Shown here in pieces: positions 3,306 through 56,684 of a DNA stretch of 64,000 nt. Origin of the DNA: Halisarca cf. caerulea. Taxonomy: Eukaryota; Porifera; Demospongiae; Chondrillida; Halisarcidae. A program made the translations under genes and the position numbers. The stretch lies in the NCBI GenBank assembly GCA_963170055.1, contig CAUJGJ010000243.1, positions 218,501 to 282,500 on the forward strand, in the 5' to 3' direction. Numbering within the stretch: position 1 is the first letter of the stretch; the number at the start of each line of letters is the position of its first letter. The notes beneath the pieces were generated by a model. The model was not told where the DNA came from. It made no database searches and worked only from the letters and a program-made list of their open reading frames with translations.

Positions 3306-3362
3306 GATTGGCAGCTATGAGTGAAGATCCAGCGAGTAAACCTCCGAAGGGGGATGACCTCC
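3306..3362 (+). CDS. ROCO-A 57-nt exon, type alpha (copy 1)
   Basis: Acceptor tttatgtttag, donor gtgagt, exactly 57 nt, phase 1 in and out. Read in phase 1 it encodes GLAAMSEDPASKPPKGDDL, a short Ser/Pro/Lys/Asp-rich and probably disordered peptide. Two further copies at 5325 and 11840 have the same length and phase, and homologous intron precedes all three. The joining to ROCO-A is inferred from phase compatibility. Confidence 0.7.
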
Positions 3363-3655: not shown

Positions 3656-3712
3656 CATTGGAAACCAGTAGTCAGGAACCAAAAAGTGGCCCTTCAAAGG
3701 TTGATACATCCG
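3656..3712 (+). CDS. ROCO-A 57-nt exon, type beta (copy 1)
   Basis: Acceptor ttgccttcatgtag, donor gtaaga, 57 nt, phase 1 in and out. It encodes LETSSQEPKSGPSKVDTSG. It aligns with the alpha exons (L..xS.xP.S.P.K.D) and with a second beta exon at 13019. The intron just downstream (tataatagtgcatga) is also shared with that copy, so exon and flank were duplicated together. Confidence 0.7.
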
Positions 3713-3923
3713 GTAAGAATCCAGTATATAATAGTGCATGAAGAGGACTTTTGATTGATTCTGTTAATTCGCTTACATTCCCACGTGTGTGTACTGTACT
3801 ACTTGGAATGTATGGCAAACAGTATATTACATACAATAGATTGTACTGTCTGATAGCCTCCTCAAGTGCTGACCACAGTGCACTGGTTGCTTCCCTTACA
3901 TGTCACAAACTGAACACTATACC

Positions 3924-4593
3924 CATCACAGGTACACTGTACCGGACATGAGTACTACCCATCACAGGTACACTGTACTGAACATGAGTACTGCCCATCA
4001 CAGGTACACTGTACCGGACATGAGTACTACCCATCACAGGTACACTGTACTGAACATGAGTACTGCCCATCACAGGTACACTGTACCGGACATGAGTACT
4101 ACCCATCACAGGTACACTGTACCGGACATGAGTACTACCCATCACAGGTACACTGTACTGAACATGAGTACTGCCCATCACAGGTACACTGTACCGGACA
4201 TGAGTACTACCCATCACAGGTATACACTGTACTGGACATGAGTACTACCTATCACAGGTACACTGTACTGGACATGAGTACTACCCATCACAGGTACACT
4301 GTACTGGACATGAGCACTACCCATCACAGGTACACTGTACTGGACATGAGTACTACCCATCTCAGGTACACTCTACTGGACATGAGTACTACCCATCTCA
4401 GGTACACTGTACCGGACATGAGCACTACCCATCACAGGTACACTGTACTGGACATGAGCACTACCCATCACAGGTTCACTGTACCGGACATGAGTACTGC
4501 CCATCACAGGTACACTGTACTGGACATGAGCACTACCCATCACAGGTTCACTGTACTGGACATGAGCACTACCCATCACAGGTACACTGTGTG
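3924..4593. repeat. 36-bp minisatellite, about 18-19 copies
   Basis: The tandem unit is catcacaggtacactgtac followed by yggacatgagyactacc. The period is 36 bp throughout, except for a 2-bp insertion near 4220 (caggtatacac). Because 36 is divisible by 3, long frames stay open on both strands (+ strand periodic MSTTHHRYTVPD/LD). It lies in the intron between exons 3656-3712 and 5325-5381 and is read as non-coding. Confidence 0.95.
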
Positions 4594-4652
4594 GAGGATG
4601 TACGCAAACCCAAGTTTTGTTAGCAGTAGGGGTTCTGTTTGAGGAATTGACT

Positions 4653-4792: not shown

Positions 4793-5324
4793 TACAATGT
4801 CATTTCATTAAGCATTTGTATACTATAGATAAACCACTCCTGTTTCTAATGACATAAAGCTACACATTTTCCATGTGGTACATTTATGAAAGTGATTATG
4901 CAAACAAATCCATGCTCCTTCTATAGTATTGGTTATAAATTACTGTACGTTAGGAAATTTTTGTGACAATGCATCACTGATTGCCTGCAGCTTTAGTTTT
5001 GGACACTAACATGATTTGTGCTAAACATAGTACGTAGAATTTGAACAATCCTTTTTTCCTGCAAATAGTAAAGAAGGCATACTGGACCTACATGTCTTAA
5101 GATACCTGTTGAGAACACTGTTTTCTGTGTACTTTTCATTAACAAGTGTATGTATGTACTTCTCATGGAATACTCGAGTGAAGTAGTCCTTTGTTGCAAA
5201 TAAAGAGATTGACTGCTGTGCAGATCTTGATGTCCAATAGATAAGTGTAGAACAAAGTAGCTGTGGATTTGTCAATGATTTTAGTGCTAGTTGAAATTGC
5301 CTGATTACTGTTTCATGCTTATAG

Positions 5325-5381
5325 GATTGGCAGCTATGAGTGATGTACCAGAGAGTAAACCTTCAAAGGGAGATAACCTCT
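5325..5381 (+). CDS. ROCO-A 57-nt exon, type alpha (copy 2)
   Basis: Acceptor catgcttatag, donor gtgagt, 57 nt, phase 1-1. It encodes GLAAMSDVPESKPSKGDNL. It is closest to the copy at 11840, and the upstream intron 4980-5324 is nearly the same as 11490-11839. Confidence 0.72.
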
Positions 5382-5558: not shown

Positions 5559-5579
5559 TTGAGAAATTGAAGAAACAAT
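5559..5579 (+). CDS. ROCO-A microexon B1 (21 nt)
   Basis: Acceptor tatttacttgcag, donor gtaagttcccc, 21 nt, phase 1-1. In phase it encodes (x)EKLKKQ, a charged, coil-like heptad. The flanking intron is shared with seven other microexons while the exon itself differs from them. Confidence 0.7.
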
Positions 5580-6957
5580 GTAAGTTCCCCACCACTCCCA
5601 CTCCCTCCATCCTATACACAGTACCAATGTACAGTATTGTTGTATCATGTGATGTGACCAAGGTTCTGTTTGTAACTGATGCTGTTCATCCGCATGTTGT
5701 GTTTGGTGTGTTTTGATGTGTTTCATGTCTTGTGTATGTGTGTACCTGATCACATGACAAGACCATTGCTGACTGTTGAAACTATGCATGCAAACTAATG
5801 TACAATCCACCCAATACCTGGGATGATATTCTTCAGCTTACTACATACTTATGTAAGGGTTCATTAATAGTCATCCTTGACTCTGTGTTAACATTTTCCT
5901 TGGTTGGTATGTACAATGTCATGATAAGGGATGTATGGAAGGTGTATGTTGAAGACTAAATTCGTAACGAGAGATTTTCCCCAAAGATTGTTTGACAATC
6001 ATATGAATAGTGCCATTCTATATCTTGTAGATGTATAAAAAACTAGAACAAAGTTCGTTTTTTGTGTGATCCTCATATCATACGTATGTTTGGTTGATTT
6101 ATGTATGGGCAGTTTGCAGTATTTATGTATATGTGTACTTACGTACATGGTAGATGTGTATTGTCTGATTTCTGTACCATTTAACATACATACTTATCAG
6201 CGACAAGGTAGTATTCCCATACACTTTATTTACAATTTTTTCTTAGTTGTTAAGTACAATGTTATGATGAGGAAGAAACCCAACAGTAAATAATCTTTTT
6301 TCCATGCCAAATATAGCATTCAGGTTGATCTACTTCTTTTTACTGAATTCACCATGATTGAGCAATATTATGTCATACTACAGCCCAATTGCACAATCAT
6401 AGCAGCAAGTGATAATTGTTGGCAGGTCTTGCTGATTGAATTAAGAATCCATACCCCGTTGCAGTATTTATGTATAATATTATGTGTACTTAATGTACTA
6501 TGGTAGATGTACATTGTCTGATTTCTGTACCACTTAACATACCTGTGAGTGATCTTAGTAGATTACTGTGTTCAAATTCCTACCTCACAGAGGTACAATG
6601 CAGTGCTATGTAGTAGGTTGTGCTGCAGGATGTAGGAATGTACACACTGCAGGCAGTCCATCTAAACTCCACCTACTAGTAGTAGATCAGTGTCCATGTA
6701 GTCCAATGTGTGTCTAGCCCTATACCCATCTATCTCCATGTGTGTTTAGCCCTAAGCAGTACTCAGCAACTGTGCACAGTTGACGACACAAGCTACATGT
6801 ACAAATTTCTATGTAACTTTGACTATTCCATCCTACACCTCGTATTAGAATACTGATAGTGCTACCATTAACTATTGCTATTGTCCTTTTGTCACAATGA
6901 TACATATCATACATTTATTGAACTATATTTTATGATGTTTCTATTGTTTACTTGCAG

Positions 6958-6978
6958 ATAAGGAACGAGATAGAACAG
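6958..6978 (+). CDS. ROCO-A microexon B2 (21 nt)
   Basis: Acceptor gtttacttgcag, donor gtaagttcccc, 21 nt, phase 1-1. It encodes (x)KERDRT. Intron flanks match the other B units. Confidence 0.68.
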
Positions 6979-7239
6979 GTAAGTTCCCCACTACTCCCAC
7001 TCCCTCTATCCTATACACAGTACCAATGTACAGTATTGTTGTATCATGTGATGTGACCAAGGTTCTGTTTGTAACTGATGCTGTTTATTCACATGTTGTG
7101 TTTGGTGTGTTTTGATGTGTTTTATGTCTTGTGTATGTGTGTACCTGATCACATGACAAGACCATTGCTGACTGTTGAAACTATGCATGCAAACTAATGT
7201 ACAATCCACCCAATACCTGGGATGGTGTTCTTCAGCTTA

Positions 7240-8649
7240 TGGTACGCTTCATAAAAAAAGAAACTGACGAGAATAGCCCTTTCTGGTTCAAATTTGACAC
7301 TTTCCATCACGTTTAGCGTTAGGCAAGTTTTTATTAGCGGTATATAGGCATTTGATGTTTGACAACCGCTAAATTAAGTGCCAACCGCTAAGTGCTAACG
7401 AATACGGTTTACGTTAAAACTTGAATTTCTCTTTATGAAGGTAATAATTAATTTAGATGTGACAGCAAGACACATCTTGAGGTATATTCATAGCTTCAAA
7501 GACAAGATGACACGTTTGGAAAGTTTCGCGATGGATATTCTGTCCAGCAGGCGCTGTGAAGGAAATGTTGAGCATATGGAAATTCGCTGCTTCGTAAAAT
7601 AGCTCACAAACGTCACTCCTTCGAATTTCTTAGGAATCGATAGAAGAATACATTCACTTTGCAGCATTTAACCCTCCTACCCTCACATACATTGTCACAT
7701 TTTTCATATTCGATTTTTTTCAAAGCTTTTTCTAGGCTTTGGTTGGGTCTACATTTACAAGTTTGAGCTCATTGTGATCGGAAAATGTTGAAGAATGTCA
7801 AAGTCAAAAGAAATTGTGGTTTCCATTGGTAACCAGGTCGCAATCACTATAATATTATAAACACAATACATTTGCAGCGAAAATGGATATTCATCTTCTA
7901 GAATTTTTGTAGTTCTTATGCAAACATGAGTAATACAAACTGTACATCATCTAGAAGAGCTCGTTTTTGCCTTTCTTTTGATATATGATGAACAACTATC
8001 AGTGACATTCCTGCTAAGATACACGTCAAAATGTATTATTACTGAATACAACAGGCGGAAACGTATAGAGATAGTATTGTCAGGATATAAACTTGTTCAA
8101 ACCTTTCGACTACATTCCTAATAGTTTTCCTTCCAATCTAAGCCATTTTCGCCCATAAACAAAGTCTTCAGAAGAGTTTTAGCATGTCTACATTTGACGA
8201 GCGGAAGACATTTTTCCAATAATGTACGGAAAATGTACTGTTTTACAGACCTTTTCCAGTGTTATGCGGTGATTTTGATGTAACAAATAGTACTATGGGT
8301 TTGGAAAGGGCTGGTCCACAAATAAAGCGGATATAGTAGGGTTTTACTCTTCAGGTCAAATCTATAGGAAACAAGCTGTCGATCTGTATATGACATGACC
8401 GTATGCGCGCTAACGTTCAAGCTATAAAAATTTCTGAAAAGTTGCCAGATTTCGCACGCACGAGAGTAGGAGGGTTAAGGGGTGAACTGAGAAAAGATTA
8501 TTTCGGATAAACGCTATCAGATTATGGCTTCTGTGAATCGCCCAGTGAAGCGATAATTTCGCTTTCGCAACTGATATTCTGTCACCAGAAAAGCGTGAAT
8601 ACCCGTTAGAGGATTTCGGTTGGCATCACGATTTTTTTGAAGCGTACTG
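7240..8649. mobile_element. TA-flanked element X (1.4 kb, non-autonomous)
   Basis: Unit homology stops at cttcagctta (7239). The left end tggtacgcttcataaaaaa is the imperfect inverse of the right end ttttttgaagcgtactg (8633-8649). TA dinucleotides flank both ends (7238-7239, 8650-8651), as expected of Tc1/mariner-type insertions. No transposase is recognisable. Confidence 0.6.
7671..8475. mobile_element. TA-flanked MITE Z nested in element X
   Basis: The left terminus accctcctaccctc (7671-7684) is inverted at the right as gagagtaggagggt (8462-8475), with one mismatch. TA flanks both ends (7669-7670, 8476-8477). It has no coding capacity and sits wholly inside element X, so it inserted later. 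Confidence 0.7.
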
Positions 8650-8651
8650 TA

Positions 8652-9411
8652 CACAGGGTATTTATAACCGTCCAGGAATAAAATGCAAAAATGGCCGTCT
8701 TGAAATAGCAGCACGAATTATCGATCGTTTCTACTTAGTTGACATGATTTTCGCCCAGTTCTTCTTACTGGACGAAAGTTGTATATATTCCGCGCATGTT
8801 GGTACTTAACTCGCAATTGTTTCTATTGTCTGAAGAAAGATAGTGAGCTAGGAATACATAGCAGTTTCAGACAAACTTCGCCTTGGTTACACCTTTTAAT
8901 CCCTCTGAATTCATATCGAACAACATGAAAAGACAGAGCAAGTGGTGAGCTATCCGAAAATCGTTCCGGGCTATAGGTTATAATCTTCCGTAAGAAAGTT
9001 ATAACCGAAAAACCTCTTTTTTCACCCTTCAAACGGCCAAAAATTGCCATAAATGGTCCAATTGGGAGAAACTGCTTGATTGTAGTACTATGCCCGGAAA
9101 GATTTTCACAAACCGATACATCTTGAGATTCCATCGAAGTAGGATTTGGTGGGATTCGAAGGCATCTGAGGTCTAACCAAGCGACTTTATCTTCGCCCTC
9201 AACAAAACTGCCATTTTCGTGACGTTTCACGAATACGTAGGCATAGCGTCACAAAAGACGCCTTCTTCCCCCATTCTGTTGATATGTGAAATTTCGAACG
9301 TCACCTGAAAGACGCTAAATGATGCATTAAAAACAGCAGCTAATTGATGACGTTGAAAACAAGCACCGCCCACAATCAGAACAAGCAACAGACGGTTATA
9401 AACACCCTGTG
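8652..9411. mobile_element. TA-flanked MITE Y (760 bp)
   Basis: Ends cacagggtatttataaccg (left) and cggttataaacaccctgtg (right) are inverted repeats with one mismatch. TA flanks both ends (8650-8651, 9412-9413). Intron-unit homology resumes exactly after the right TA (ctacatacatatgtaag). A 135-codon minus-strand open frame inside (8823-9230) resembles nothing known and is probably chance. Confidence 0.75.
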
Positions 9412-10479
9412 TACTACATACATATGTAAGGGTTCATTACTAGTCATCCTCGTGACCATTACTTTCTCATACTATTGGTCACATTTATGACGTACCCGGA
9501 TATAGTATGCTATCAGCGATAAGGTAGTATTGCCATTTTCTGTGTTTACATTTTCCTTGGTTAGTATGTACAATGTCATGATAAGGAGATGGTTTGTGGA
9601 AAGTATATGTTGAGGACAAAAGCGATAGCGAGACATCTTTCCCAAAGATTGTTTGACAATCATGTGAATAATGTCACTCTGTATCTTGTGGATGCAAAAC
9701 CTAAACACAGTCCTTTTTGTATGTGATCATATGTTTGGTTTATGTATGGTCAGTTGCAATATATTTTATGTACATGTGTACTTACATACTATGGTAGATG
9801 TGTGTTGTCTGATTTCTGTACCACTTAACATACCTGTGAATGAATTAGTAGATTACTGTGTGCTGTGTGCAAATTCCTACCTCACACAGGTACAATGCAG
9901 TGCTACGTAGTAGGTTGTGCTGGAGGATGTAGGAATGTACACACTGCAGGCGGTCCATCTAAACTCTACCTACTAGTAGTAGATCAGTGTCCATGTAGCC
10001 CCATGTGTGTCTAGCTCTATACCTGTCTATCCCCATGTATGTCTAGCGTTGTACCTATCTAGCCCTGTGTACCAAACATCCCTTACTATACATTGCAAGC
10101 AATCAATGAGATTTTTTTATTTTTATTTTTATTTTTTTTTCAAAAGACAGACATGTAGACCTTAGAATAAAGAAAGAAAAAAAAATAACACTATAATTTA
10201 TATCACAGTAAGGTTAACAATATGTGTTACCGAAATCTATGAGATTGTGACACATTGCATTGAGGTACACCTGACAAGCGAGACTCAGGAACAGTGCACG
10301 GTTGACGACACAAGCTACATGTACAAATTTCTATCTAACTTGGACTATTCCATCCTACACCTTGTATTAGAATACTGATAGTGCTCCCATTAACTATTGC
10401 TATTGTCCTTTTGTCACAATGATATATATCATACATTTATTGCACTATATTTTATGATGTTTCTATTGTTTACGTGCAG

Positions 10480-10500
10480 GGGAGGAATTGAAGAAAACAA
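10480..10500 (+). CDS. ROCO-A microexon B3 (21 nt)
   Basis: Acceptor gtttacgtgcag, donor gtaagttcccc, 21 nt, phase 1-1. It encodes (x)EELKKT, a near relative of B1. Confidence 0.68.
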
Positions 10501-11839
10501 GTAAGTTCCCCACCACCCCCACTCCCTCCATCCTATACACAGTACCTATGTACAGTATTGTTGTATCATGTGATGTGACCAAGGTTCTGTTTGTAACTGA
10601 TGCTGTTTATCCACATGTTGTGTTTGTTGTGTTTTGATGTGTTTCATGCCTTGTGTATGTGTGTACCTGATCACATGACAACACCATTGCTGACTGTTGA
10701 AACTATGCATGCAAACTAATGTACAACCCACCCCATACCTGGGATGGTATTCTTCAGCTTACTACCTGCGTATGTAAGGGTTCATTACTAGTCATCCTTG
10801 TGACCATTACTTTCTCATACTATTGGTCACATTTATGATGTACCTGGATATAGTATGCTATCAGCGATGAGGTAGTATTGCCATTTTCTGTGTTTACATT
10901 TTCCTTGGTTGGTATGTACAATGTCATGATAAGGACATGGTGTGTGGAAGGTATATGTTGAGGGCGAAATGATAACAAGAGATCTTCCCCAAAGATTGTT
11001 TGACAATCATGTGAATAATGTAACTCTGTATCGTGTGGATGCAAAACCTTAACAAAGTCCATTTTGTATGTAATTCTCCTAATAGTATCCTATGTTTGGT
11101 TTATGTATGGGCAGTTACAATATTTATGTTTATGTGTACTTACATACTATGGTGGATGTGTGTTGTCTGATTTCTGTACCACTTAACATACCTGTGAATG
11201 AATTAGTAGTTTACTGTGTGCTGTGTTCAAATTCCTACCTCACACAGGTACAATGCAGTGCTACGTAGTAGGTTGTGCTGGAGGATATAGGAATGTACAC
11301 ACTGCAGGCAGTCCATCTAAACTCCACCTACTAGTAGTAGATCAGTGTCCATGTAGCCCCATGTGTGTCTAGCCCTGTACCTGTCTATCCCCATGTATGT
11401 CTAGCCTTGTAGCTATCTAGCCCTATGTACCATACAGTATAAATTACTGTATGTTAGGAAATTTTCATGACAATGCATCACTGATTGCCTGCAGCTTCAG
11501 TTTTGGACACTAACATGATGTGCTAAACATAGTACGTAGATTTTGAACAATCCAGGAATGTATGAACTTTTTCCTACAAATAGTAAAGAAGGCATACTGG
11601 ACTGACATGTCTTAAGATACCTGTTGAGAACACAGTTTTCTGTGTACTTTTCATTAACATGTGTATGTGTGTACTTCTCATTGATTACTCGAGTGAAGCA
11701 GTCCTTTGTTGCAAATAGTGAGATTGACTGCCGTGCAGATCTTGATGTCCAATAGATAAGTGTAGAACAATGTAGCTGTGGATTTGTCAATGATTTTAGT
11801 GCTTGTTGAAATTGCCTGATTACTGTTTCATGTTTATAG

Positions 11840-11896
11840 GATTGGCAGCAATGAGTGATGTACCAGAGAATCAACCTTCGAAGGGAGATAACCTCT
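11840..11896 (+). CDS. ROCO-A 57-nt exon, type alpha (copy 3)
   Basis: Acceptor tcatgtttatag, donor gtgagt, 57 nt, phase 1-1. It encodes GLAAMSDVPENQPSKGDNL. With the 13019 exon it repeats the alpha-beta order seen at 3306/3656. Confidence 0.72.
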
Positions 11897-13018
11897 GTGA
11901 GTACTGTGTTTATTGTTGTGAATGTTGAATGATATGGTAAACTGGGGTAATTTGGAACAGTGGGGTAATTCAGGACAGTGGGTTAAAAGCTGTGTCAACT
12001 GCAATTATTGCTGCTCATCGTTGATTCCGTGAATTGTGCATAAATTCAGCATTTTTTGTAAGTATAGCCAGACAGCTTATCCATAGCAAACAAGTAATTC
12101 GAGTTTAAAAAACTTGTGGGCTGCTTATGGTCCTGGAAACTCAAATCCGTCTGAGACACGCTCAGTGACGCATTAAAAACAGCTGCTAATTGATGATGTT
12201 GCTTTTCTGTTCAAATTGATGTTCTGTTTAATGTTTCCTGACGTATACGGTATATGATAGGGTTAGTGTGCCTGCCTGCATTCCGGCAACCCAAAAATGA
12301 AAACCTCGTCCTGAATTAACCCAGTGTTCCAATTATCTTGTTTTGCCCTATTTCTGTTCTCCTGGATCATGCTTGTATAACGTTTGACTTCTGTATAATC
12401 ATAATTTTATTCTTTCTACATATGTATATCCCACAGTACAGTCATTCTGATGGTAATATTACACCTGGTTGATGTGAAGATAATACCGTATTATAGGGAG
12501 GAATTTTTCACTGATAGGAATTTTTGTGAATCTTCAAAAGTTGTCAAAGTATAATTTAGCATTGAATTTTTATATTTTCGCAAAATTGGACTTTTGTGTG
12601 TTCCGTTTCATTAATGGTAAAGCCTATTCTTCGGAGAATCAGTGGACTGCTGGTGCGTTTCCATGCAGGGAAGTGTACTCTTCAATCTTACCTTGCACTT
12701 TGCAGGTGAACTACACTGATGTTGACTTTATGCACCTCCTCGTTAGCATACCACATTGTAGTTCAAATAACCCTTCAGTTAAGGCAGAGAATCCACTTGT
12801 AGGCTTTATCCATTGATGACGAGAGTGAAACTGAAATGCACGGACACAACTTCAACACGTGGAGCTGCTGAAAATGACTGCCTATAAACAAACAATAGTA
12901 AAATAATTTTTACGAGTTGATTAGGCCACGTGGAAAGCGCCAAATTAATGTCCTTGTGAAAATCATTTGTGAGTTTCATTGACAGTTATACTTGTATTGT
13001 TCTCTTGTACACATGTAG
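11897..13018 (+). other. Intron between alpha-3 and beta-2
   Basis: About 1.1 kb without a recognised gene. It contains remnants resembling other repeats: 12088-12150 (attcgagtttaaaaaactt) resembles 33925-33980, and 12160-12200 (cattaaaaacagctgctaat) resembles part of element Y. A 96-codon open frame at 12526-12816 has no recognisable product. Confidence 0.5.
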
Positions 13019-13075
13019 TAGTGGAATGCAGCATTGAGGAACAAACAAGTGGTCCCTCAGAGTTGGTTATACCCG
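13019..13075 (+). CDS. ROCO-A 57-nt exon, type beta (copy 2)
   Basis: Acceptor cttgtacacatgtag, donor gtaaga, 57 nt, phase 1-1. It encodes VECSIEEQTSGPSELVIPG, aligning with LETSSQEPKSGPSKVDTSG of the 3656 exon. A second AG three bases downstream (tag|tag) could shift the acceptor by one codon. Confidence 0.68.
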
Positions 13076-13186
13076 GTAAGAACCATGTATAATAGTGCAT
13101 GAGGACGACTTGTGATTGATTGTGTTGTAGCTGTTCCAAGAGATTTTGTTTGATTATACTGTGTGCTGTGTGCGAATTCCTACAGT

Positions 13187-13978
13187 GCACATGTGGCAGT
13201 CGGGAGTAGAAATGAAGAATTTGGTGTGGGACATGGAATTCACTTTTTTGCAGAAAAATGTTTTTTGACATGTTGACTTATAGTCCTGAAAGTTTCAGTA
13301 CCAATCTCCACCAAAATTTGTGTAAAATGATCCCCTAGAAGGTCCTCCTCTGCTCGCAATTGTGGCCAAAATACAAGGGGAAAATGGCCGCCAGTCCAAC
13401 GGCGCCAACAAAAACTGCATTATTTAGGGTGTAAAGAACAATGGGACAGTGAAACAAATACTTCTTGTAGCTTTCAATGCATAGGTAAATCTAGGTATCA
13501 ATGCATTGGTAAAAATAGGTAAAATGGCGATAACTTTGACTACAAAACTGCTAGTGGCTACCAGAAATCGGCCAAGCTCACTAGGGCGAGGTTTTCTTCG
13601 AACAACTCAGTCTTAAAATGCTCGCAGAGATACCTAACAACTTTGAATAGACGTAGGAGGAGGAGTAGAAGTGGCTGGTTCACTTTGAGTGCAAAACTTG
13701 CGGCTGTTAGCAGATTTTAGTGACAAAAAGTTCCTTTGCACGCTGTAGAACAACAAATAACCCCTTTGTTTGTACTTCGAAAATGGTTGGCGAGGTTAGT
13801 ACAAGTAACAGTACAAAACTACATGTTCCAGGCTTCAAATAGAAGCCCAGGTCATTACTAGATTATTAGATACCTTTTATAAGAGGCTAAAACAAAGTTA
13901 GGGAAATTCGAAGCTCATTTTCTCATCATTATGCAATGTACCTAATTCCTAATTTCTACTCGCAACTGCCACACATGC
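13187..13978. mobile_element. MITE W with ~38-bp terminal inverted repeats
   Basis: Left end gcacatgtggcagtcgggag and right end ctcgcaactgccacacatgc are inverted, and the inverted similarity continues through tagaaat/atttcta. It is 792 bp with no coding capacity and interrupts duplicated intron downstream of beta-2. Confidence 0.7.
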
Positions 13979-15050
13979 ATACTTATACACGCTGTGAAAT
14001 TTTCACAATTGTAATTTTGTGGATTTCATGAATAGGATGAACTTGAAATATTTGTTCCTTGAAACTATTTTTTATTAATTTTTATTATTCTTAATTTATT
14101 CATCTAATGTTGGTGCATTATATACCAATATGGCTGCTATCCAACACCGAAGATTGCGGGTGGATTAGGCACCCTTGTCTAATATACGAAGAACAAAGAT
14201 GAGAAAAAATCTTTGTATCTGAGTGACCTATGACACTGTCTTTTAACAACGCTCTCTGCATATCGAGTGTACAAGTTTCTCACTTGTTGCCTCATAAACC
14301 AGAGTTAGGCATACATATTTAAACGTGACAAAGAATATTAAGCGGGGTCTACTTCCATTTTGCCTTTTAGTTGAAACCATTTCATTTTCACCACATGCAC
14401 GCTTGTGAAAAGTATTGTGTAACAGTCCATCTACTCGAGCAGTACAAATGAATCTTACGATGACATAATATGGTTAGGCTATTGCACAACAAACAGGTGT
14501 AATAGCCAAATTAGAACTTACAAAAAAATTATGCCTACCCTCCTGGGACAAATTTTGCAGTAGTACATGAAAATTTTGTGACGTAGGGTACATATAATGA
14601 TGCTGTGTGGTAGTTGTGCTGTAAGATGTGGGGATTTCCACACTGTACACCCACTCCATCTAAAGTACATGTGGAATGGTGTCTGAGTAGCCCCATGTAT
14701 ATTTAACCCTATACCTGTCTATCCCCATGTATGTCTAGCCTTGTGCCTATCTAGCCCTATGTACCAAACATCCCTTACCATACAATGCAAGCAATCTATG
14801 AGATTGTGACACATTGCATTGAGGTACACTTGACAAGCAGGACTCAGCAACCGTGGTTGATTGTGCATGTTACATGCATAATATGCTGAATCAGGACTTC
14901 TCCCTATCCTCCATGCTGCATCGTAAGCCCCCTATTATGTAGAATGCTAATAGTGCTGGGCTAAAATTAGGAATGTACTTTTGTTGGTATGTTGCATATC
15001 CATTAATTACAGATACTGTATTTTATGATGTTTCTATTGTTTACTTGCAG

Positions 15051-15074
15051 ATGATAAAGAATGGCAGAGAAGTT
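15051..15074 (+). CDS. ROCO-A microexon B4 (24 nt)
   Basis: Acceptor gtttacttgcag, donor gtaagttcccc, 24 nt, phase 1-1. It encodes (x)DKEWQRS. Confidence 0.66.
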
Positions 15075-16133
15075 GTAAGTTCCCCACCACTCCCACTCCC
15101 TCCATCCTATACACAGTACCAATATACAGTATTGTTGTTAAGGTTCTGTTTATAACTGATGCTGTTTATCCACATGTTGTGTTTGTTGTGTTTTGATGTG
15201 TTTCATGTCTTGTGTATGTGTGTACCTGGTCACATGACAAGACCATTGCTGACTGTTGAAACTATGCATGCAAACTAATGTACAATCCACCCAATACCTG
15301 GGATGGTATTCTTCAGCTCACTACATACGTATGTAAGGGTTCATTACTAGTCATCCTCGTGACCATTACTTTCTCATACTATTGATCACATTTATGACGT
15401 ACCCGGATATAGTATACAACAGCGATGAGGTAGTATAGGTAAGACTGTTGGACATTCATGTGAATAATGCCACTCTGTATCTTGTGAATGCAAGACCTGA
15501 GGAAAGTCCGTTTTGTGTGTGATCCTCCTATCCTATGTTTGGTTTATGTATGGTCAGTTGCACTATAATTACGTACTATGGTAGATGTGTGTTGTCTGAT
15601 TTCTGTACCACTTAACATACCTGTGAATGAATTAGTAGATTACTGTGTGCTGTGTTCAAATTCCTACCTCACACAGGTACAATGCAGAGCTATGTAGTAG
15701 TTTGTGCTGCAGGATGTAGGAATGTACACACTGCAGGCAGTCCATCTAACCTCTACCTACTAGTAGTAGATCAGTGTCCATGTAGCCCCATGTGTGTCTA
15801 GCCCTATACCCGTCTATCCCCATGTATGTCTAGCGTTGTACCTATCTAGCCCTATATACCAAACATCCCTTCCCATACAATGCAAGCAATCTATGAGATT
15901 GTGACACATTGCATTGAGGTATACCTGACAAGCAGGACTCAGCAACAGTGCATGGTTGACGACACAAGCTACATGTACAAATTTCTATATAACTGTGACT
16001 ATTCCATCCTACACCTCGTATTTGAATACTGATAGTGCTACCATTGACTATTGCTATTGTCCTCTTGTCACAATGATACATATCACACATTTATTGCACT
16101 ATATTTTATGATGTTTCTATTGTTTACTTGCAG

Positions 16134-16160
16134 GGGGGGCATTTGGCAGAAGTCTTGGAG
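16134..16160 (+). CDS. ROCO-A microexon B5 (27 nt)
   Basis: Acceptor gtttacttgcag followed by a G run, donor gtaagttcccc, 27 nt, phase 1-1. It encodes (x)GAFGRSLG. It is the same length as B7 and shares the NRSL/GRSL end, unlike the acidic-basic 21-nt type. Confidence 0.66.
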
Positions 16161-16571
16161 GTAAGTTCCCCACCACACCCACTCACTCCATCCTATACAC
16201 AGTACCAATGTACAGTATTGTTGTATCATGTGATGTGACCAAGGTTCTGTTTGTAACTGATGCTGTTTATCCACATGTTGTGTTTGGTGTGTTTTGATGC
16301 CTTTCATGTCTTGTGTATGTGTGTACCTGATCACATGACAACACCATTGCTGACTGTTGAAACTATGCATGCAAACTAATGTACAGTTCAACCAATACCA
16401 TGGATGGTATTCTTCATCTTACTACATACGTATGTAAGGGTTCATTAATAGTCATCCTCGTGACCATTACTTTCTCATGCTATTGGTCACATTTATGACA
16501 TACCCGGATATAGTATGCAACAGCAATGAGGTAGTACTATATTTTATGATGTTTCTATTGTTTACTTGCAG

Positions 16572-16592
16572 TTGAGGAAGAGTTGAGAAGAA
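16572..16592 (+). CDS. ROCO-A microexon B6 (21 nt)
   Basis: Acceptor gtttacttgcag, donor gtaagttcccc, 21 nt, phase 1-1. It encodes (x)EEELRR. Its unit is short: only 438 bp separate it from B5. Confidence 0.68.
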
Positions 16593-17810
16593 GTAAGTTC
16601 CCCACCACTCCCACTCCCTCCATCCTATGGACAGTACCAATGTACAGTATTGTTGTATCATGTGATGTGATCAAGGTTCTGTTTATAACTGATGCTGTTT
16701 ATCCACATGTTGTGTTTGTTGTGTTTTGATGTGTTTCATGTCTTGTGTATGTGTGTACCTGATCACATGACAGCACCATTGCTGACTGTTGAAACTATGC
16801 ATGCAAACTAATGTACGATCCACCCACTACCTGGGATGGTATTCTTCAGCTTACCACATACGTATGTAAGGGTTCAGTACTAGTCATCCTCGTGACCATT
16901 ACTTTCTCATACTATTGGTCACATTTATGACGTACCTGGATATAGTATGCTATCAGCAATGAGGTAGTATTCCCATTTTCTGTGTTTACATTTTCCTTGG
17001 TGTTACGTACAATGTCATGATAAAGAGATGGTATGTGCATGGTATACACTCAGGACCAAAACAATAGCGAGAGATATTCCCGAAATATTATTGTTTTAAC
17101 ATTTGTATGAATAATGCCAATCCATATCTATTCGGATGTATAAAAGATTAGGACAAAGTCCATTTTGTGTGTGATCTTCCTATCATTTGTTTGCTTTATG
17201 TATGGGCAGTTGCAATATTGATGTATATTTATTTATGTACATGTGTACTTACGTACTATGGTAGATGTGTGTTGTCTGATTTCTCTACCACTTACATACC
17301 TGTGAACGAATTAGTAGATTACTGTGTGCTGTGTTCAAATTCCTACCTCACACAGATACAATGCAGTGCTACGTAGTAGGTTGTGCTGCAGGATATAGGA
17401 ATGTACACACTGCAGGCAGTCCATCTAAACTCTACCTACTAGTAGTAGATCAGTGTCCATGTAGCCCATGTGTGTCTAGCCCTATACCCGTCTATCCCCA
17501 TGTATGTCTAGCCTTGTAGCTATCTAGCCCTATGTACCAAACATCCCTTCCCATACAATGCAAGCAATCTATAAGATTGTGACACATTGCATTGAGGTAC
17601 ACCTGACAAGGAGGACTCAGCAACAGTGCACAGTTGACGACACAAGCTACATGTACAAATTTCTATATAACTTTGACTATTCCATCCTACACCTCGTATT
17701 AGAATACTGATAGTGCTACCATTAACTATTGCTATTGTCTTTTTGTCACAATATTATTATCATACATTTATTGCACTATATTTTATGATGTTTGTATTGT
17801 TTACTTGCAG

Positions 17811-17837
17811 TTATGGTATTGAACAGAAGTCTTAGAG
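17811..17837 (+). CDS. ROCO-A microexon B7 (27 nt)
   Basis: Acceptor gtttacttgcag, donor gtaatttcccc (weaker than the usual gtaag), 27 nt, phase 1-1. It encodes (x)MVLNRSLR. Confidence 0.62.
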
Positions 17838-18908
17838 GTAATTTCCCCACCACTCCCACTCACTCCATCCTATACACAGTACCTATGTACAGTATTGTTG
17901 TATCATGTGGTGTGACCAAGGTTCTGTTTGTAACTGATGCTGTTTATCCCCATGTTGTGTTTGGTGTGTTTTGATGTGTTTCATGTCTTGCGTATGTGTG
18001 CACCTGATCACATGACAACACCATTGCTGACTGTTGAAACTATGCATGCAAACTAATGTACAATCCACCCAATACCTGGGATGGTATTCTTCAGCTTACT
18101 ACATATGTATGTAAGGGTTCATCAATAGTCATCCTCGTGACCATTACTTTCTCATACTATTGGTCACATTACATGACATACCGGGATATAGTATGCTATC
18201 AGCGATGAGGTAATATAGGTAAGACTGTTTGACATTCATGTGAATAGTGCCACTCTGTATCTTGTTAATGCAAAACCTGAACAATGCCCGTTTTGGGTGT
18301 GATAGTATGTTTTGTTTATATATCATCAGTTGCTGTATTTATGTATAATATGTGTACTTGCGTACTATGGTAGATGTGTGTTGTCTGATTACTATACTAC
18401 TTAACATACCTGTGAATGAATTAGTAGTTTACTGTGTGCTGTGTTGAAATTCCTACCTCACACAAGTACAATGCAGTGCTATGTAGTAGGTTGTGCTGGA
18501 GGATGTAGGAATGTACACACTGCAGGCAGTCCATCTAAACTCCACGTACTAGTAGTAGATCAGTGTCCATGTACCCCCATGTGTGTCTAGCCCTATACCT
18601 GTCTATCTCCATGTATGTCTAGCCTTGTAGCTATCTAGCCCTATGTACCAAACATCCCTTCCCATACAATGCAAGCAATCTATGAGATTGTGACACATTG
18701 CATTGAGGTGCACCTGACAAGCAGGACTTAGCAACAGCACATGGTTGACAAAACAAGCTACATGTGCAAATTTCTATGTAACTTTGACTATTAAATCCTA
18801 CACCTCGTATTAGAATACTCATAGTGCTACCATCAACTATTGCTATTGTCGTTTTGTCATAATGATACATGCACTATATTTTGTGATGTTTCTATTGTTT
18901 ACATGCAG

Positions 18909-18929
18909 GAGAGGAAGAGAGGAGAAGAT
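18909..18929 (+). CDS. ROCO-A microexon B8 (21 nt)
   Basis: Acceptor gtttacatgcag, donor gtaagttcccc, 21 nt, phase 1-1. It encodes (x)EEERRR. It is the last microexon before the retrotransposon and the P-loop exon at 25224, whose acceptor is also phase 1. Confidence 0.68.
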
Positions 18930-19149
18930 GTAAGTTCCCCACCACTCCCTCTCACTCCATCCTATACACAGTACCAATGTACAGTATTGTTGTATCATGT
19001 GATGTGACCAAGGTTCTGTTTGTAACTGATGCTGTTTATCCCCATGTTGTGTTTGGTGTGTTTTGATGCGTTTCATGTCTTGTGTGTGTGTGTACCTGAT
19101 CACATGACAACACCATTGCTGACTGTTGAAACTATGAATGCAAACTAAT

Positions 19150-19668
19150 TGTGAAGTTGAAGCTTCTTGGCTCGAACACTTGTTCAACTAGTTCACTGAA
19201 TTCAACTCAATTCAACACATGCCAACATAAGCCAACTTAAGCCAACTTAATACAACCAAAAAGTGAGGCGATATTTATAGAAAACTAAACAGGATGACCT
19301 TTAAAAGATTAAAGGATGATACAAAACTCTTTGAGGACTAAACCACAAGTGAAAAGAACCTTTGACTCAAAAGACCAGATGAGTGAAAATACTTAATAGT
19401 GGGTACAAAACTGCTAGATAGACAAAATGCTAATGGATTGGAAATGGCTAGACACTGACCTGTACGGTCTACTAAAGCAAAAGGTGAACTACAGAAAAGA
19501 TAACCCTAACTTCCTAGACTAAGTGAATACATCATAAAGAAAAAGCCAACAAACTAACACACATACCGAAGCCTCACAATTACATGTACTCATGCTCAAC
19601 CACACATACTAGTACTATGCAATAGTTAGTTCAAGCATACAATGCAAGGAGAATGAGGAATCTTCACA
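19150..19668 (-). repeat. 3' LTR (519 bp)
   Basis: Same length as the copy at 24127-24645. By eye the only difference noticed is ccctaac here versus ccttaac in the other copy. It carries TG...CA ends. The gag-pol stop codon (19664-19666) lies just inside it. Confidence 0.95.
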
Positions 19669-22600
19669 CTCCTCCCCCCTTCTCCTGCGACACGGCAGTC
19701 TGTCGCGTCTCCATTCGCGATAATGCATCTGCGTTGCTATGATGGCGTCCTGCTCGGTAAGATGTAGTAAACTGATACGGCTGTAAGGCAAGACTCCAAC
19801 GAGCCAACCTTGAGTTGGTATCCTTCAGTCGATCCAGCCATTCCAAACTTCTGTGGTCTGTCTGAATCTGAAAGGGTCTGCCAAGTAGATACACACGAAA
19901 TGCATACACGGCTAGTTTGATAGCCAAGCACTCTTTCTCCACTGTTGAATAGTGCTCCTCTCGTGGTAGTAGCTTGCGACTAAAGTAGGCCACAGGATGC
20001 TCAGTTCCATCATCCTGACATTGACTCAATACAGCACCCACCGACCGTTCTGATGCATCTGCCTGAAGAATGAAATCTCTCTCGAAGTTGGGGCTGTACA
20101 ACACAGGGTTACTACACAAGCTGCTCTTGAGACTCTGGAAAGCTTCCTCGCATTGGGGCGTCCAATTGACCTTGTTTGGACCAAACTTTCTTGTCAAGTC
20201 TGTCAAGGGAGCTGCTGTTGCAGAGTAGCTCGGAATGAACTTGCGATAGTAACCAGTGAGACCAAGAAAGGCACGGACTTGTTTCTTAGTCTCAGGGGTA
20301 GACCACTTCTGAATTGCCTCAATTTTGCTGGTCTCTGGCTGGACAAGTCCATTACCAACAATGTGGCCCAAATAGATGCATTCCTGCATGGCAAATTGGC
20401 ACTTGCTTGGTTTGGCTGTCAGTCCAGCTTCCCGTAATCGACTCAAGATTCTTTGTACCTGCTCAAGATGCGCCTCCCATGACTGGCTGAAGATCACAAG
20501 ATCATCAAGGTAGGCAGCGGCATAGGCTTCTAGACCTCTCAAAAGCCGATCCATCATCCTTTGGAATGTTGCAGGCGCACCTTGTAATCCGAAAGGCATC
20601 ACGGTAAATTGAAATAGTCCCTGGGGAGTAATGAAGGCTGTCTTTTCTTTACTCTCTGGACTCATTGGCACCTGCCAATACCCTTTGGCAAGATCCAGTA
20701 TGGTGAGGAACTTCGCCTGCCCAATCCTATCTATGAGATCATCAATCCGTGGCATGGGATAGGGATCAATCCTGGACTGGCGATTCAGCTTACGATAATC
20801 CACACAAAATCTCAGGGAACCATCCTTCTTCTTGACCAGTACAATAGGGGCTGCCCAGCTACTGGATGAAGGTTCCACAATTCCCGCCTTCAACATGGCC
20901 TGTAACTCCTCCTCGACTTCGGTCCGATACGCATGGGGTACTCTGTAGGGGGGTAAACGAATGGGAGAAGACTCACCAGTGTCGATGCTGTGTTCTGCAT
21001 AGTCAGTTCTCCCTGGGGTACTCTGTAGCACATCCCGATACCCGTCCAACAACTGCCGGAGTGGACCCCGCTGCTTAGCAGATAACTGCTGAGAAATTGT
21101 AATACCATCATCTGGGTTCTCGTCATCCCAGAGCTCCAGTTCACCTTGGACCACATCTGGGTCCATGACATCCACAAAGAGAGCTGTGGATTCTGGCATC
21201 TGCCACTTGCGAAGCATGTTGACATGGAACACCCGCTTTCGTTTCACATGGTCGAACATGTCCACTCGATAGGTGACCTTGCCTAACTTCTCTAGTATAG
21301 GATATGGTCCCTGCCACTTGGCCAATAACTTGTTGGATGAAGTGGGTAGCAAAACTAGGACATGATCTCCAACCTTGAATTCTCGCTCTCGGGCATTTCG
21401 GTCATACCATCTCTTCTGGGTTTGCTGCGACCTTTGTAGATTCTCCTGGGCTAGATTGGACATCTTTTCCAAACGCTTTTGCACCGACAACACATAAGAC
21501 ACCACACTCTCACTGCTCCGTGGGTGTGCCTCCCAGGACTCGCGAAGGACATCCAAAGGTCCCCGTACAGCACGTCCATGTACCAATTCAAATGGAGAAA
21601 ATCCTGTTGACGCCTGAGGCACTTCCCTATATGCAAACAGAACATAGTTAATCAACTTGTCCCAGTCCTTACCTTCCTCAGAGGCAGCCTTCCTCAACAT
21701 TGACTTGAGGGTTTGGTTGAACCGCTCAACAAGACCATCTGTCTGAGGGTGGTAGGGGCTGGTCTGGATGGGTTGGATCCGTAGTAGACGGTATACTTCC
21801 TTCAACAATCTCGATGTGAAATTGGATCCTTGATCCGTAAGGATCTCCTTAGGGATTCCTACCCGTGAAAAAAGAGATATCAGCTCTTCTGCAATGTGCT
21901 CTGCATCAATGGACTTCAAGGGCACAGCTTCTGGCCATCTGGTTGCGTAGTCGCATATGACCAGGATGTAGCGATTCCCACTGCGACTCTTGGGTAGGGG
22001 CCCAACGATATCCATGGCGATCCGCTCAAATGGAACATCTATGATGGGGAGTGGCACCAGGGGAGCCACCTGCTTTCTTCCTGGTGCAGTCTTCTGGCAC
22101 TCTCCACAGCTGCGGCAGAACTCCTCCACATCCCTAAAGATTGTGGGCCAGTAAAACCTCTGAAGAATTCTCTCCAGGGTCTTCTTCCTTCCCAAATGTC
22201 CAGCCATAGGGATAGAATGGGCCAGTTCTAGCACTGTCCTACGAACTGACCGGGGTAGGACCAGTTGCTCCACATCATCGTCTGGTGCATCCTTGCTAGG
22301 TCTGGCCTTGCGATACAGTATCCCTTGGCGGGAGAAGAACTGTCCATTGGGCTTCTCCACGATGGACTCACGTATGACCTTCAGTGTCTCGTCCTCTTGC
22401 TGCATTCCTCGAAGATCCTGTTGGTTGACATCCAGGGCACACTCTTCCCTGGAGTTGTGCGCTGCTCTTTCTTGTCCATTCTTCCGTTTCTGGCTCCTCG
22501 ACAAATGCGGTCTAGAGTGGCTGGTCCCAAACAGGTCGTCATCAAATGCATCCCAGGGCATTTTCTCTGGTTCCAGGGGTTTCGCTGACACTCCGGATTC

Positions 22601-24064
22601 CTGTTCCTTGTCCACTCTAGCCTCCTCTTGCTGCTTCTCTCGTCGTCTCTGCTCCCGTGTAGCAACTGCTACCACCTGCTCGGCTGGCTCTGACACCTGT
22701 CTCCCGGGTGTTCCCTCTAGTAGTTTCCCCAGATCTGGGACATCTCTGCCTAGCAAGACTGGGACTGGGAGCTTGTCTGATACACCAGCCTGCACTGAAA
22801 AAGAATATCCTCCCACACATATACTCACCTCCGCTGTGGGATAGATAGTAACATCCCCATGGGCACACCGAATCTCCAACGTCTTGTCAGAGATCTTCCT
22901 GGGAGCTACCAAATCCCTGTGCACCATGGTCGTTGCTGCTCCTGTATCCAGGAGGATTCGATCCACTGGAAGATTGTCCACAAATCCTGCCCTCAGTGGT
23001 TCCTCCAGGTGGGTTGTACGATTGCCACAAAACATGGCTGGCTTGGAGGGACATTGACTTGCATAGTGCCCCTTTTTCTGACAAGCAAAGCACCAAGGCC
23101 CATCTCTCTCGCCTTTCCTAGGGCTCTGCTGACTAGGCACACTGGTCCCTTTCTCTTCTGGTTTCTTCGTTCCATTCTTGTCATTGCTTCCCCGGCAATC
23201 ACGTGACATGTGACCTGACTTGCCACACTTGAAACACTGCCTCTCTGAATGCCCTGTGGTCCTAGGGCCATTCGGCTCCTCTGTCCGTGACCCCTCCTTG
23301 GACCTCCTAGCTTGAACATAGTCATTTGCTAACTGTCCTGCCTCTGCTACACTTTTAGGCTTCCTCTCACTGACCCAGATCCGCACTCCACTGGGTAGCG
23401 AATTGAGAAGTTGTTCCACTGCAAACAACTCCAGGACCTCCCCCATATCATCACAATGGCGGGTCCACTTTCGCAACAGATCCATTGTTCTGGTGGCCAT
23501 CTCCTGGTAGGACTCCTCCTGCCGCTTCGCCACTGATCTGAATCTCATCCGGTAACTCTCGTCATTGACATTATACCGTTTCAAAATAGCACCTTTCAGG
23601 CTATCATAATCTCCAGCGTCCTCGCCTGCCATTGCTGCATAGGCCTGCTGTGCTTTACCCGTCAGTTGGGGTGCAAGCAGGTAGACCCATTTAGCCTTTT
23701 CCACCTTGTAGGCCTTCATCATCCGCTCGAAGGTTGTAAGGTAGGCCTCAATGTCATCTTGATCACTCAGCTTGGTTAGGCGCAGGTGCTCTCCACTCGT
23801 AAGGACATTCTCCCGGCCCTCACGTCCATTCTGGTTCTTCTCAACCAACTCTCTCATGAGCTCCATCTGTTGGCTCATCTCACGTACTCGGGCATCCATC
23901 TCTCGGTCCCGTCTCTCTCGTTCTTGTGCGATCTCCTCTTCGCGTTTCCTTCGATCATCAATCATGATCTTGAGTAATTCGGCAACACCTGGGGCCTCTG
24001 CCACTGTGTCTTCCATTGCCTCTCTCTCTTGGTATTGTCTCCCTGACCTTGTGGTCATAAACAC
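19664..24064 (-). CDS. Gag-Pol polyprotein, single frame (PR-IN-RT-RNaseH order)
   Basis: This is a 1466-aa frame from ATG 24064. Gag with a charged coiled-coil start (aa 20-80) is followed by two CCHC knuckles (CFKCGKSGHMSRDC, 277-290; CFACQKKGHYASQC, 325-338). The aspartic protease has LLDTGAATTMV (DTG 373-375). The integrase has an HHCC zinc region (616-656), catalytic D685, D744 and E780, and a GPY motif (KWQGPYPI, about 916-923). Reverse transcriptase follows, with LDLAKGYW, MPFGLQGAP and YLDD (1185-1188), then RNase H (QADASERSVGAVL, TDHRSLEWL, NADALSR). Integrase preceding RT is the arrangement known from Gmr1-type gypsy elements rather than the usual RT-RH-IN. No env frame, no chromodomain and no frameshift between gag and pol are seen. 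All catalytic residues are present, so the product looks functional. Confidence 0.95.
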   Translation of the reverse strand: MFMTTRSGRQYQEREAMEDTVAEAPGVAELLKIMIDDRRKREEEIAQERERRDREMDARVREMSQQMELMRELVEKNQNGREGRENVLTSGEHLRLTKLSDQDDIEAYLTTFERMMKAYKVEKAKWVYLLAPQLTGKAQQAYAAMAGEDAGDYDSLKGAILKRYNVNDESYRMRFRSVAKRQEESYQEMATRTMDLLRKWTRHCDDMGEVLELFAVEQLLNSLPSGVRIWVSERKPKSVAEAGQLANDYVQARRSKEGSRTEEPNGPRTTGHSERQCFKCGKSGHMSRDCRGSNDKNGTKKPEEKGTSVPSQQSPRKGERDGPWCFACQKKGHYASQCPSKPAMFCGNRTTHLEEPLRAGFVDNLPVDRILLDTGAATTMVHRDLVAPRKISDKTLEIRCAHGDVTIYPTAEVSICVGGYSFSVQAGVSDKLPVPVLLGRDVPDLGKLLEGTPGRQVSEPAEQVVAVATREQRRREKQQEEARVDKEQESGVSAKPLEPEKMPWDAFDDDLFGTSHSRPHLSRSQKRKNGQERAAHNSREECALDVNQQDLRGMQQEDETLKVIRESIVEKPNGQFFSRQGILYRKARPSKDAPDDDVEQLVLPRSVRRTVLELAHSIPMAGHLGRKKTLERILQRFYWPTIFRDVEEFCRSCGECQKTAPGRKQVAPLVPLPIIDVPFERIAMDIVGPLPKSRSGNRYILVICDYATRWPEAVPLKSIDAEHIAEELISLFSRVGIPKEILTDQGSNFTSRLLKEVYRLLRIQPIQTSPYHPQTDGLVERFNQTLKSMLRKAASEEGKDWDKLINYVLFAYREVPQASTGFSPFELVHGRAVRGPLDVLRESWEAHPRSSESVVSYVLSVQKRLEKMSNLAQENLQRSQQTQKRWYDRNAREREFKVGDHVLVLLPTSSNKLLAKWQGPYPILEKLGKVTYRVDMFDHVKRKRVFHVNMLRKWQMPESTALFVDVMDPDVVQGELELWDDENPDDGITISQQLSAKQRGPLRQLLDGYRDVLQSTPGRTDYAEHSIDTGESSPIRLPPYRVPHAYRTEVEEELQAMLKAGIVEPSSSSWAAPIVLVKKKDGSLRFCVDYRKLNRQSRIDPYPMPRIDDLIDRIGQAKFLTILDLAKGYWQVPMSPESKEKTAFITPQGLFQFTVMPFGLQGAPATFQRMMDRLLRGLEAYAAAYLDDLVIFSQSWEAHLEQVQRILSRLREAGLTAKPSKCQFAMQECIYLGHIVGNGLVQPETSKIEAIQKWSTPETKKQVRAFLGLTGYYRKFIPSYSATAAPLTDLTRKFGPNKVNWTPQCEEAFQSLKSSLCSNPVLYSPNFERDFILQADASERSVGAVLSQCQDDGTEHPVAYFSRKLLPREEHYSTVEKECLAIKLAVYAFRVYLLGRPFQIQTDHRSLEWLDRLKDTNSRLARWSLALQPYQFTTSYRAGRHHSNADALSRMETRQTAVSQEKGGGV
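19669..19682 (-). other. Polypurine tract
   Basis: Read on the minus strand, aaggggggaggag directly precedes the 3' LTR, the expected plus-strand primer position. It also encodes the last residues (GGGV) of the polyprotein. Confidence 0.85.
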
Positions 24065-24106
24065 TCTACAGATACAGGGGTCCTCGCTAACGACTGAAGC
24101 AAAAGG

Positions 24107-24124
24107 ATCCCACTTCTGACACCA
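24107..24124 (-). other. Primer binding site, tRNA-Leu-like
   Basis: Two bases inside the 5' LTR, the + strand reads atcccacttctgacacca, which has the form of a tRNA 3' end including CCA and best fits tRNA-Leu. The minus strand (tggtgtcagaagtgggat) would pair with it. The tRNA identity is from memory of leucine tRNA ends. Confidence 0.8.
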
Positions 24125-24126
24125 AA

Positions 24127-24645
24127 TGTGAAGTTGAAGCTTCTTGGCTCGAACACTTGTTCAACTAGTTCACTGAATTCAACTCAATTCAACACATGCC
24201 AACATAAGCCAACTTAAGCCAACTTAATACAACCAAAAAGTGAGGCGATATTTATAGAAAACTAAACAGGATGACCTTTAAAAGATTAAAGGATGATACA
24301 AAACTCTTTGAGGACTAAACCACAAGTGAAAAGAACCTTTGACTCAAAAGACCAGATGAGTGAAAATACTTAATAGTGGGTACAAAACTGCTAGATAGAC
24401 AAAATGCTAATGGATTGGAAATGGCTAGACACTGACCTGTACGGTCTACTAAAGCAAAAGGTGAACTACAGAAAAGATAACCTTAACTTCCTAGACTAAG
24501 TGAATACATCATAAAGAAAAAGCCAACAAACTAACACACATACCGAAGCCTCACAATTACATGTACTCATGCTCAACCACACATACTAGTACTATGCAAT
24601 AGTTAGTTCAAGCATACAATGCAAGGAGAATGAGGAATCTTCACA
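24127..24645 (-). repeat. 5' LTR (519 bp)
   Basis: Promoter-side LTR of the antisense element, almost identical to 19150-19668. The interval to the gag ATG (24064) is only about 60 bp. Confidence 0.95.
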
Positions 24646-56628: not shown

Positions 56629-56684
56629 TTATGTATATAAATGTTATTATTGTCTTTTAAAAAGAAGTATTCTCTTTCCTCAAG

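Follow-up and report, generated by a model that had tools for sequence, protein, structure and literature searches.

Tandem exons in Dscam-type genes encode half or whole immunoglobulin domains and are mutually exclusive. SRRM4-dependent neural microexons are single conserved exons, preceded by an upstream UGC and found in many genes. In the micro-exon genes (MEGs) of schistosomes, rows of microexons shorter than 36 bp have been described, most of them symmetric, a feature that the authors consider to favour alternative splicing without loss of the frame (PMC4671649). That paper counts 26 symmetric microexons among the 33 of MEGs 26-32, and it portrays MEGs as having long flanking exons around a core in which microexons predominate, together with a signal peptide and a tendency toward small proteins (PMC4671649). 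Here, a family of microexon-like cassettes is described from the sponge Halisarca cf. caerulea. The starting point is a stretch of 64,000 nucleotides (nt) of the forward strand of contig CAUJGJ010000243.1 (C227:218501-282500 of the 194 Mb genome), called the window below, in which eight segments of 21, 24 or 27 nt precede the exons of a GTPase.

We consider it probable that these segments are coding, symmetric cassette microexons, predicted to be spliced into a variable charged linker whose sequence is under diversifying selection. Like the microexons of MEGs, the cassettes are shorter than 36 bp (21-33 nt in 34 of 34) and symmetric (34 of 34). Unlike in the MEGs as portrayed in that paper, the microexons provide a minor share of the coding sequence, since m1-m8 amount to 61 residues and the two large GTPase exons to 740, and they form one repeat family with similar introns. 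The resemblance to Dscam clusters lies in tandem duplicated, differing exons in similar surroundings, from which a large protein diversity is possible; the exons here are, however, of 7-11 codons and symmetric, and no docking or selector pairing has been seen in the folds. With the SRRM4-dependent microexons the cassettes share a very small size, preservation of the frame and a TGC that immediately precedes the AG in almost every one of 33, but here they are organized as tandem families with diversified exons. To our knowledge, no such microexon array has been reported in Roc-COR (ROCO) or Death/ZU5 genes.

All eight segments lie within positions 5559-18929 of the window on the forward strand. 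They are m1 (5559-5579, 21 nt, EKLKKQ), m2 (6958-6978, 21 nt, KERDRT), m3 (10480-10500, 21 nt, EELKKT), m4 (15051-15074, 24 nt, DKEWQRS), m5 (16134-16160, 27 nt, GAFGRSLG), m6 (16572-16592, 21 nt, EEELRR), m7 (17811-17837, 27 nt, MVLNRSLR, donor GTAATT) and m8 (18909-18929, 21 nt, EEERRR). Each is preceded by AG and followed by GTAAGTTCCCC (GTAATTTCCCC in m7). An earlier note on this DNA had given eight segments of 21, 21, 21, 24, 27, 21, 27 and 21 nt, and these lengths and the AG and GT borders proved exact on recheck. Its claim that all eight lengths are multiples of three and remain open in phase 1 is likewise borne out, with a phase-1 stop in none of the eight and stops in frame 0 in four and in frame 1 in five. 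Among the peptides it listed, EKLKKQ, EELKKT, EEELRR, EEERRR and KERDRT are recovered, and NRSLR is the tail of m7. The impression that the introns are alike and the exons differ holds in the 11 same-length pairs of the window, where the flanks (40 nt upstream and 80 nt downstream) are 88-97% identical and the exons 43-76%.

Two similarity searches of the genome, whose match counts are lower bounds, extend the family beyond the window. At least 35 matches were obtained with 164 nt of the downstream intron (34 on C40 and C227, plus a single one on C124 that is 76% alike), and at least 34 with 186 nt around m3 (17 on C227 and 17 on C40). Since the downstream-intron matches lie nearly all on C40 and C227, the spread is local, and a dispersed mobile element has been rejected on the same distribution (34 of 35). 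All 34 cassettes on C227 and C40 have a length that is a multiple of three, a stop-free phase 1 and both AG and GT. A nested 62-nt candidate at C227:233513, containing m4 and its acceptor, was dropped (33 of 34 rows kept), and the 33 cassettes comprise 25 of 21 nt, four of 27, two of 24 and two of 33. The 34th cassette, at C40:3046146, was read once the rule was set and obeys it (21 nt, EEVMEE). The members on C40 include cassettes at 2.60, 2.91, 2.97 and 3.03-3.05 Mb. Among 31 distinct exons, 13 contain a stop in frame 0, 19 in frame 1 and none in phase 1; in 2000 shuffles, a mean of 12.4 shuffled exons contain one, with a minimum of 4. Scanning the genome for TTTACTTGCAG-N{9,36}-GTAAGT yielded 23 sites, every one with a multiple of three and all within these arrays, and the reversed control pattern yielded no site in the same 194 Mb. 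Some N stretches of the genome lie near cassettes (L061, L068, L069).

The rate contrast between exons and flanks has been measured in 14 units, eight from the window and six from an array on C40 that precedes a paralog of the GTPase gene, giving 91 pairs with 50-nt flank bins to 300 nt on both sides. The median divergence of the exons is 0.43, and the medians of the flank bins are 0.02-0.10. Mean divergence of the alignable flanks per pair ranges from 0.034 to 0.131, and the exon divergence exceeds it in 81 of 81 usable pairs and likewise in the 10 pairs left out. Two longer exons of the window, A2 (5325-5381, LAAMSDVPESKPSKGDNL) and its duplicate A3 (11840-11896), both of 57 nt on the forward strand, serve as a control. 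They differ at 4 of 57 sites (two replacement and two synonymous), with flank divergence of 0.12 over 300 nt upstream and 0.03 over 60 nt downstream, and of 5% over 5053-5352.

Replacement tests were confined to the 24 distinct 21-nt exons, with the 24-, 27- and 33-nt exons and the 34th cassette set aside. In 20 pairs of nearest exons, the differing codons comprise 50 replacements and one synonymous change. Codons with a single-base difference divide 35:1, where 5.5-9.4 synonymous changes are expected, and among 1000 simulations values this low appeared twice at kappa 1, once at kappa 2 and never at kappa 4. Twelve disjoint pairs give 33:0 in favour of replacement and 20:0 among single-base codons (P 0.025, 0.009 and 0.003 at kappa 1, 2 and 4), and in the two wrong frames these bases yield 26:7 and 26:5. 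Between the paralogs, the GTPase exons show ratios of nonsynonymous to synonymous divergence (dN/dS) of 0.06 and 0.18 with dS of 0.24 and 0.30, and are under purifying selection. The duplication and subsequent diversification of a splicing cassette put forward in the earlier note is thus well supported, both by the 81 of 81 pairs and by the phase-1 differences being replacements; the outcome that the note had named as a refutation, exons that evolve just as their intron does, did not occur. The 20 nearest-neighbour pairs also show 26 transitions and 68 transversions (740 to 816 in the flanks), and this excess of transversions could reflect selection for replacements or repeated hits.

The introns around the exons keep a short common core. 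The 25 nt upstream of the exon match the consensus at 0.80-1.00 in 33 of 33 cassettes, and from +1 to +75 every 25-nt bin reaches at least 0.88 in 29 of 33, even where the outer flanks are unrelated. The four exceptions downstream are C40:2781499, where about 25 nt are kept, C227:67713, C227:63885 and C227:233551 (m4). In seven of eight C40 cassettes between 2.97 and 3.04 Mb the downstream core is nearer the consensus than the acceptor side. At m8 the downstream core covers 18930-19029 on the forward strand (about +1 to +100) and comprises the donor, a C-rich stretch and TGTACAGTATTGTTGTATCATGTGATGTG; similar sequence stands behind the other microexons. Its conservation suggests that the core may aid the recognition of so small an exon. 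The splice sites are nearly invariant among the 33 cassettes, both in the donor (A at +3 in 32, G at +5 in 32, T at +6 in 33) and in the TGC just before the AG (T at -5 in 32, G at -4 in 33, C at -3 in 33).

RNA structure as the device that steers exon choice is not supported by the fold of a unit, which is no better than its shuffles (z +1.47); no stable structure common to the units was found, and the stem described next is only a lead. The fold of the alignment contains a 6-pair stem across the exon, in which GUUUAC of the acceptor faces GUAAGU of the donor. This stem is weak (z -3.7, 2 of 100 column shuffles as low, almost no covariation). GUUUAC at -12 to -7 is able to pair with GUAAGU at +1 to +6 in 30 of 33 cassettes, and such pairing would place the exon in a loop and mask the donor. 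An intronic RNA gene has been rejected: nothing across the window reaches the gathering level of Rfam, and a single unit gives one hit, at the level of chance (E 0.9).

In the mechanism that we propose, each unit would be a scaffold around a tiny exon of 7, 8, 9 or 11 codons, made of an acceptor core of about 25-50 nt, the donor and a downstream core of about 75-100 nt. Because the exons are symmetric and the GTPase acceptor is in phase 1, inclusion or skipping would keep the frame in most combinations. Each included microexon would add a short, mostly charged peptide (about x-E-E-E/Q/L-x-R-R) before the GTPase, and the linker would grow mostly by 7 residues at a time. With full inclusion, 13 of 13 junctions are sense codons. 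When the A and B exons are kept, 186 of the 256 possible sets of m1-m8 avoid a stop, and the free combination behind the many possible linkers of the earlier note would be limited. The units would have been copied and reshuffled both inside a locus and from one locus to another; the introns would have remained alike and selection would have favoured replacements in the exons. Going beyond the observed anatomy, frame, spread, rate contrast and replacement bias, the exons would be spliced in with variable inclusion, and their product may serve, in a probable signalling protein, as a variable segment for recognition or spacing.

Several points weigh against this interpretation. Of all possible forward junctions, 6 of 91 give TGA, all onto A3 or m8. 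The reading of the 33 cassettes required AG and GT, which the m3-region search behind them did not; the cassettes were found by similarity, and decayed members could therefore be missed; and intron pieces without a cassette where one is expected do exist (L003, L014, L025). In the rate contrast, 1056 of 1762 flank bins were kept, a difference of 25% or more being taken as a sign that a bin could not be aligned, and 10 of 91 pairs with fewer than eight usable bins were not counted, and the smallest ratio of exon to flank divergence, between m6 and the fourth microexon of the paralog, is 1.33. Nearest-neighbour pairs share exons, and the 12 disjoint pairs were used to avoid this sharing. Mean diversity at the three codon positions of the 24 exons is 0.37, 0.48 and 0.24, but the low value at the third is not significant (permutation 0.07), and the ratio of replacement to synonymous differences per site (pN/pS) over all pairs is 1.47 with a bootstrap range of 0.99-2.54. 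The purine fraction of the exons is 0.73, and this richness may in part represent splicing enhancers. The case for diversifying selection is a balance of tests, in which the 28 pairs with the closest flanks point the opposite way, with pS (0.45) above pN (0.36) on few synonymous sites.

These closest-flank pairs speak for another explanation, in which the exons carry ancient, ordinary diversity without diversifying selection and the introns seem young because of gene conversion or strong constraint. Between the window and paralog arrays the alignable flanks diverge by 0.076 on average (0.053-0.131, 43 pairs), less than the dS of 0.24 and 0.30 in the GTPase exons; the introns are therefore homogenised or constrained and offer no neutral clock, and part of the contrast between exon and flank stems from this. 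Distances between exons show no correlation with those between core flanks (rho 0.01), and the mean third-position diversity is near the GTPase dS; both points speak for old exons. However, conversion that runs through a unit would be expected to make the exons alike as well unless selection maintained their difference, and the 33:0 replacement codons of the disjoint pairs are frame-specific. Homogenisation that spares just the exon would be best explained by selection for exon difference, and we regard ancient exon diversity within homogenised introns as a somewhat unlikely account of the whole pattern. That the segments are a non-coding repeat family or relic, and no exons at all, can draw on the exon-less pieces of the same intron. 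It has been rejected on the retention of frame, length and splice sites, seen in 34 of 34 cassettes that are open multiples of three with AG and GT, together with the frame-specific replacements and the matching phase of the downstream acceptor, and is very improbable.

Two further explanations accept coding microexons and differ from ours in how the exons would be used. If all were constitutive, they would form one long, fixed charged linker without exon choice, in keeping with stop-free junctions at full inclusion, the TGA created by some skips and donors that seldom depart from GTAAGT in the 33 cassettes. Constitutive use does not require the symmetry of 34 of 34 exons and leaves the replacement bias and the retained diversity unexplained, and we hold it to be unlikely. 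A mutually exclusive choice as in Dscam, with one microexon per block in each transcript, is suggested by tandem similar exons with similar introns and by a block order (A, microexons, A, B, microexons) that repeats. Symmetric exons, though, need no exclusivity, no docking or selector pairing was seen in the one-unit fold or in the alignment fold with its 6-pair stem, and direct joining of A2, A3, m1 or m4 to m8 gives TGA; such a choice is accordingly improbable. Inclusion of variable sets of symmetric cassettes is the reading that we retain.

The remaining exons of the gene have been placed on the forward strand in the order A1, B1, A2, m1, m2, m3, A3, B2, m4-m8, GTPase exon 1, GTPase exon 2. 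A1 (3306-3362, LAAMSEDPASKPPKGDDL) has 57 nt, an in-frame ATG and, by eye, stops in the other two frames, and A2 is its duplicate. B1 (3656-3712, LETSSQEPKSGPSKVDTS) and B2 (13019-13075, VECSIEEQTSGPSELVIP) are also of 57 nt. The A and B exons share the phase 1-1 layout of the microexons. The acceptor of GTPase exon 1 (25224-25558) is in phase 1; this exon contains GPPRVGKT, which we take to be the P-loop, and passes in phase 0 into GTPase exon 2 (26592-28478, 629 codons), which carries DTGGQ and GTHLD, presumably GTPase motifs as well. Order, orientation and phase suggest that all these exons belong to one transcript. The intron that separates B1 from A2 carries an array of a 36-nt tandem repeat at about 3900-4600. 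The intron between m8 and GTPase exon 1 contains, in the m8 unit and outside the cassette system, a presumably Ty3-like long terminal repeat (LTR) retroelement on the reverse strand (19150-24645) with one long open frame. Its 519-nt LTRs differ by one mismatch and CTAAT flanks it on both sides; the insertion is recent.

The GTPase itself is probably a ROCO protein; the two exons joined score 22.5 bits with Pfam Roc, under the cut-off of 27, and the assignment is therefore probable and not established. No COR domain is listed for it in the Pfam scan, and its match to a PDB chain that bears the name Rab family protein reaches E 0.74 only. A structure model of the 629-residue exon, built from three sequences, was discarded for its low confidence score (pLDDT 30). 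Another GTPase-like open frame of the window, at 56681-58786, scores 17.1 bits with COR-B (cut-off 27) and is 24% identical to GTPase exon 2. A search of the whole genome for Pfam Roc gave at least 119 matches (150 of 224 candidates scored), among them long open frames that lie in groups on C11, C25, C264 and C345; many of the others are probably ordinary small GTPases.

The paralog on C40 is 96% and 89% identical to the window GTPase over the two exons and is preceded by six other microexons. Between its fifth and sixth microexons lies a death-like exon (C40:2770001-2780000, reverse strand, offset 5009) that scores 15.3 bits with Pfam Death (cut-off 22.6) and has no blastn match in the window. 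Three similar open segments of the window look death-like by eye, at 36217-36462, near 44300 and near 62900, and a Pfam scan of the first gave no match. Cassettes at 59-76 kb of C227 precede a ZU5-like exon (C227:79150-79751, 18.9 bits, cut-off 21), whose likely acceptor is again in phase 1, and these may form a common gene. The downstream exons therefore resemble Roc-COR and Death/ZU5 signalling genes, all with scores under the Pfam cut-offs. Since cassettes precede both the paralog and the ZU5-like exon, the array is no peculiarity of ROCO genes; the earlier note had placed it in a ROCO gene, a name that the Roc score supports weakly.

The position of a diversified peptide close to death-, ZU5- and GTPase-like exons points to a possible role in immunity or self-recognition. 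Tentatively, the family may be a genome-encoded diversity cassette. A scaffold of about 100-150 nt would spread by copying, both inside a gene and to genes with other domains (GTPase, ZU5-like), and its copies would be kept similar, and the coding segment in it, mostly 7 residues long, would be spared homogenisation and pushed toward new amino-acid sequences. Inclusion would then supply selectable recognition or spacer peptides, possibly for immune-type intracellular signalling. Exons of this kind tend to escape gene finders, a difficulty that the MEG paper notes for MEGs (PMC4671649). If the proposal is correct, a family of at least 34 members in one genome would offer an unusually clear natural example of selection that targets precisely the exon within a duplicated splicing unit. 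Two questions would then become accessible to tests: whether splicing varies the linker in signalling proteins of this type and, because many natural breakpoints delimit the conserved core, which intron sequence is needed for the recognition of a 21-nt exon.

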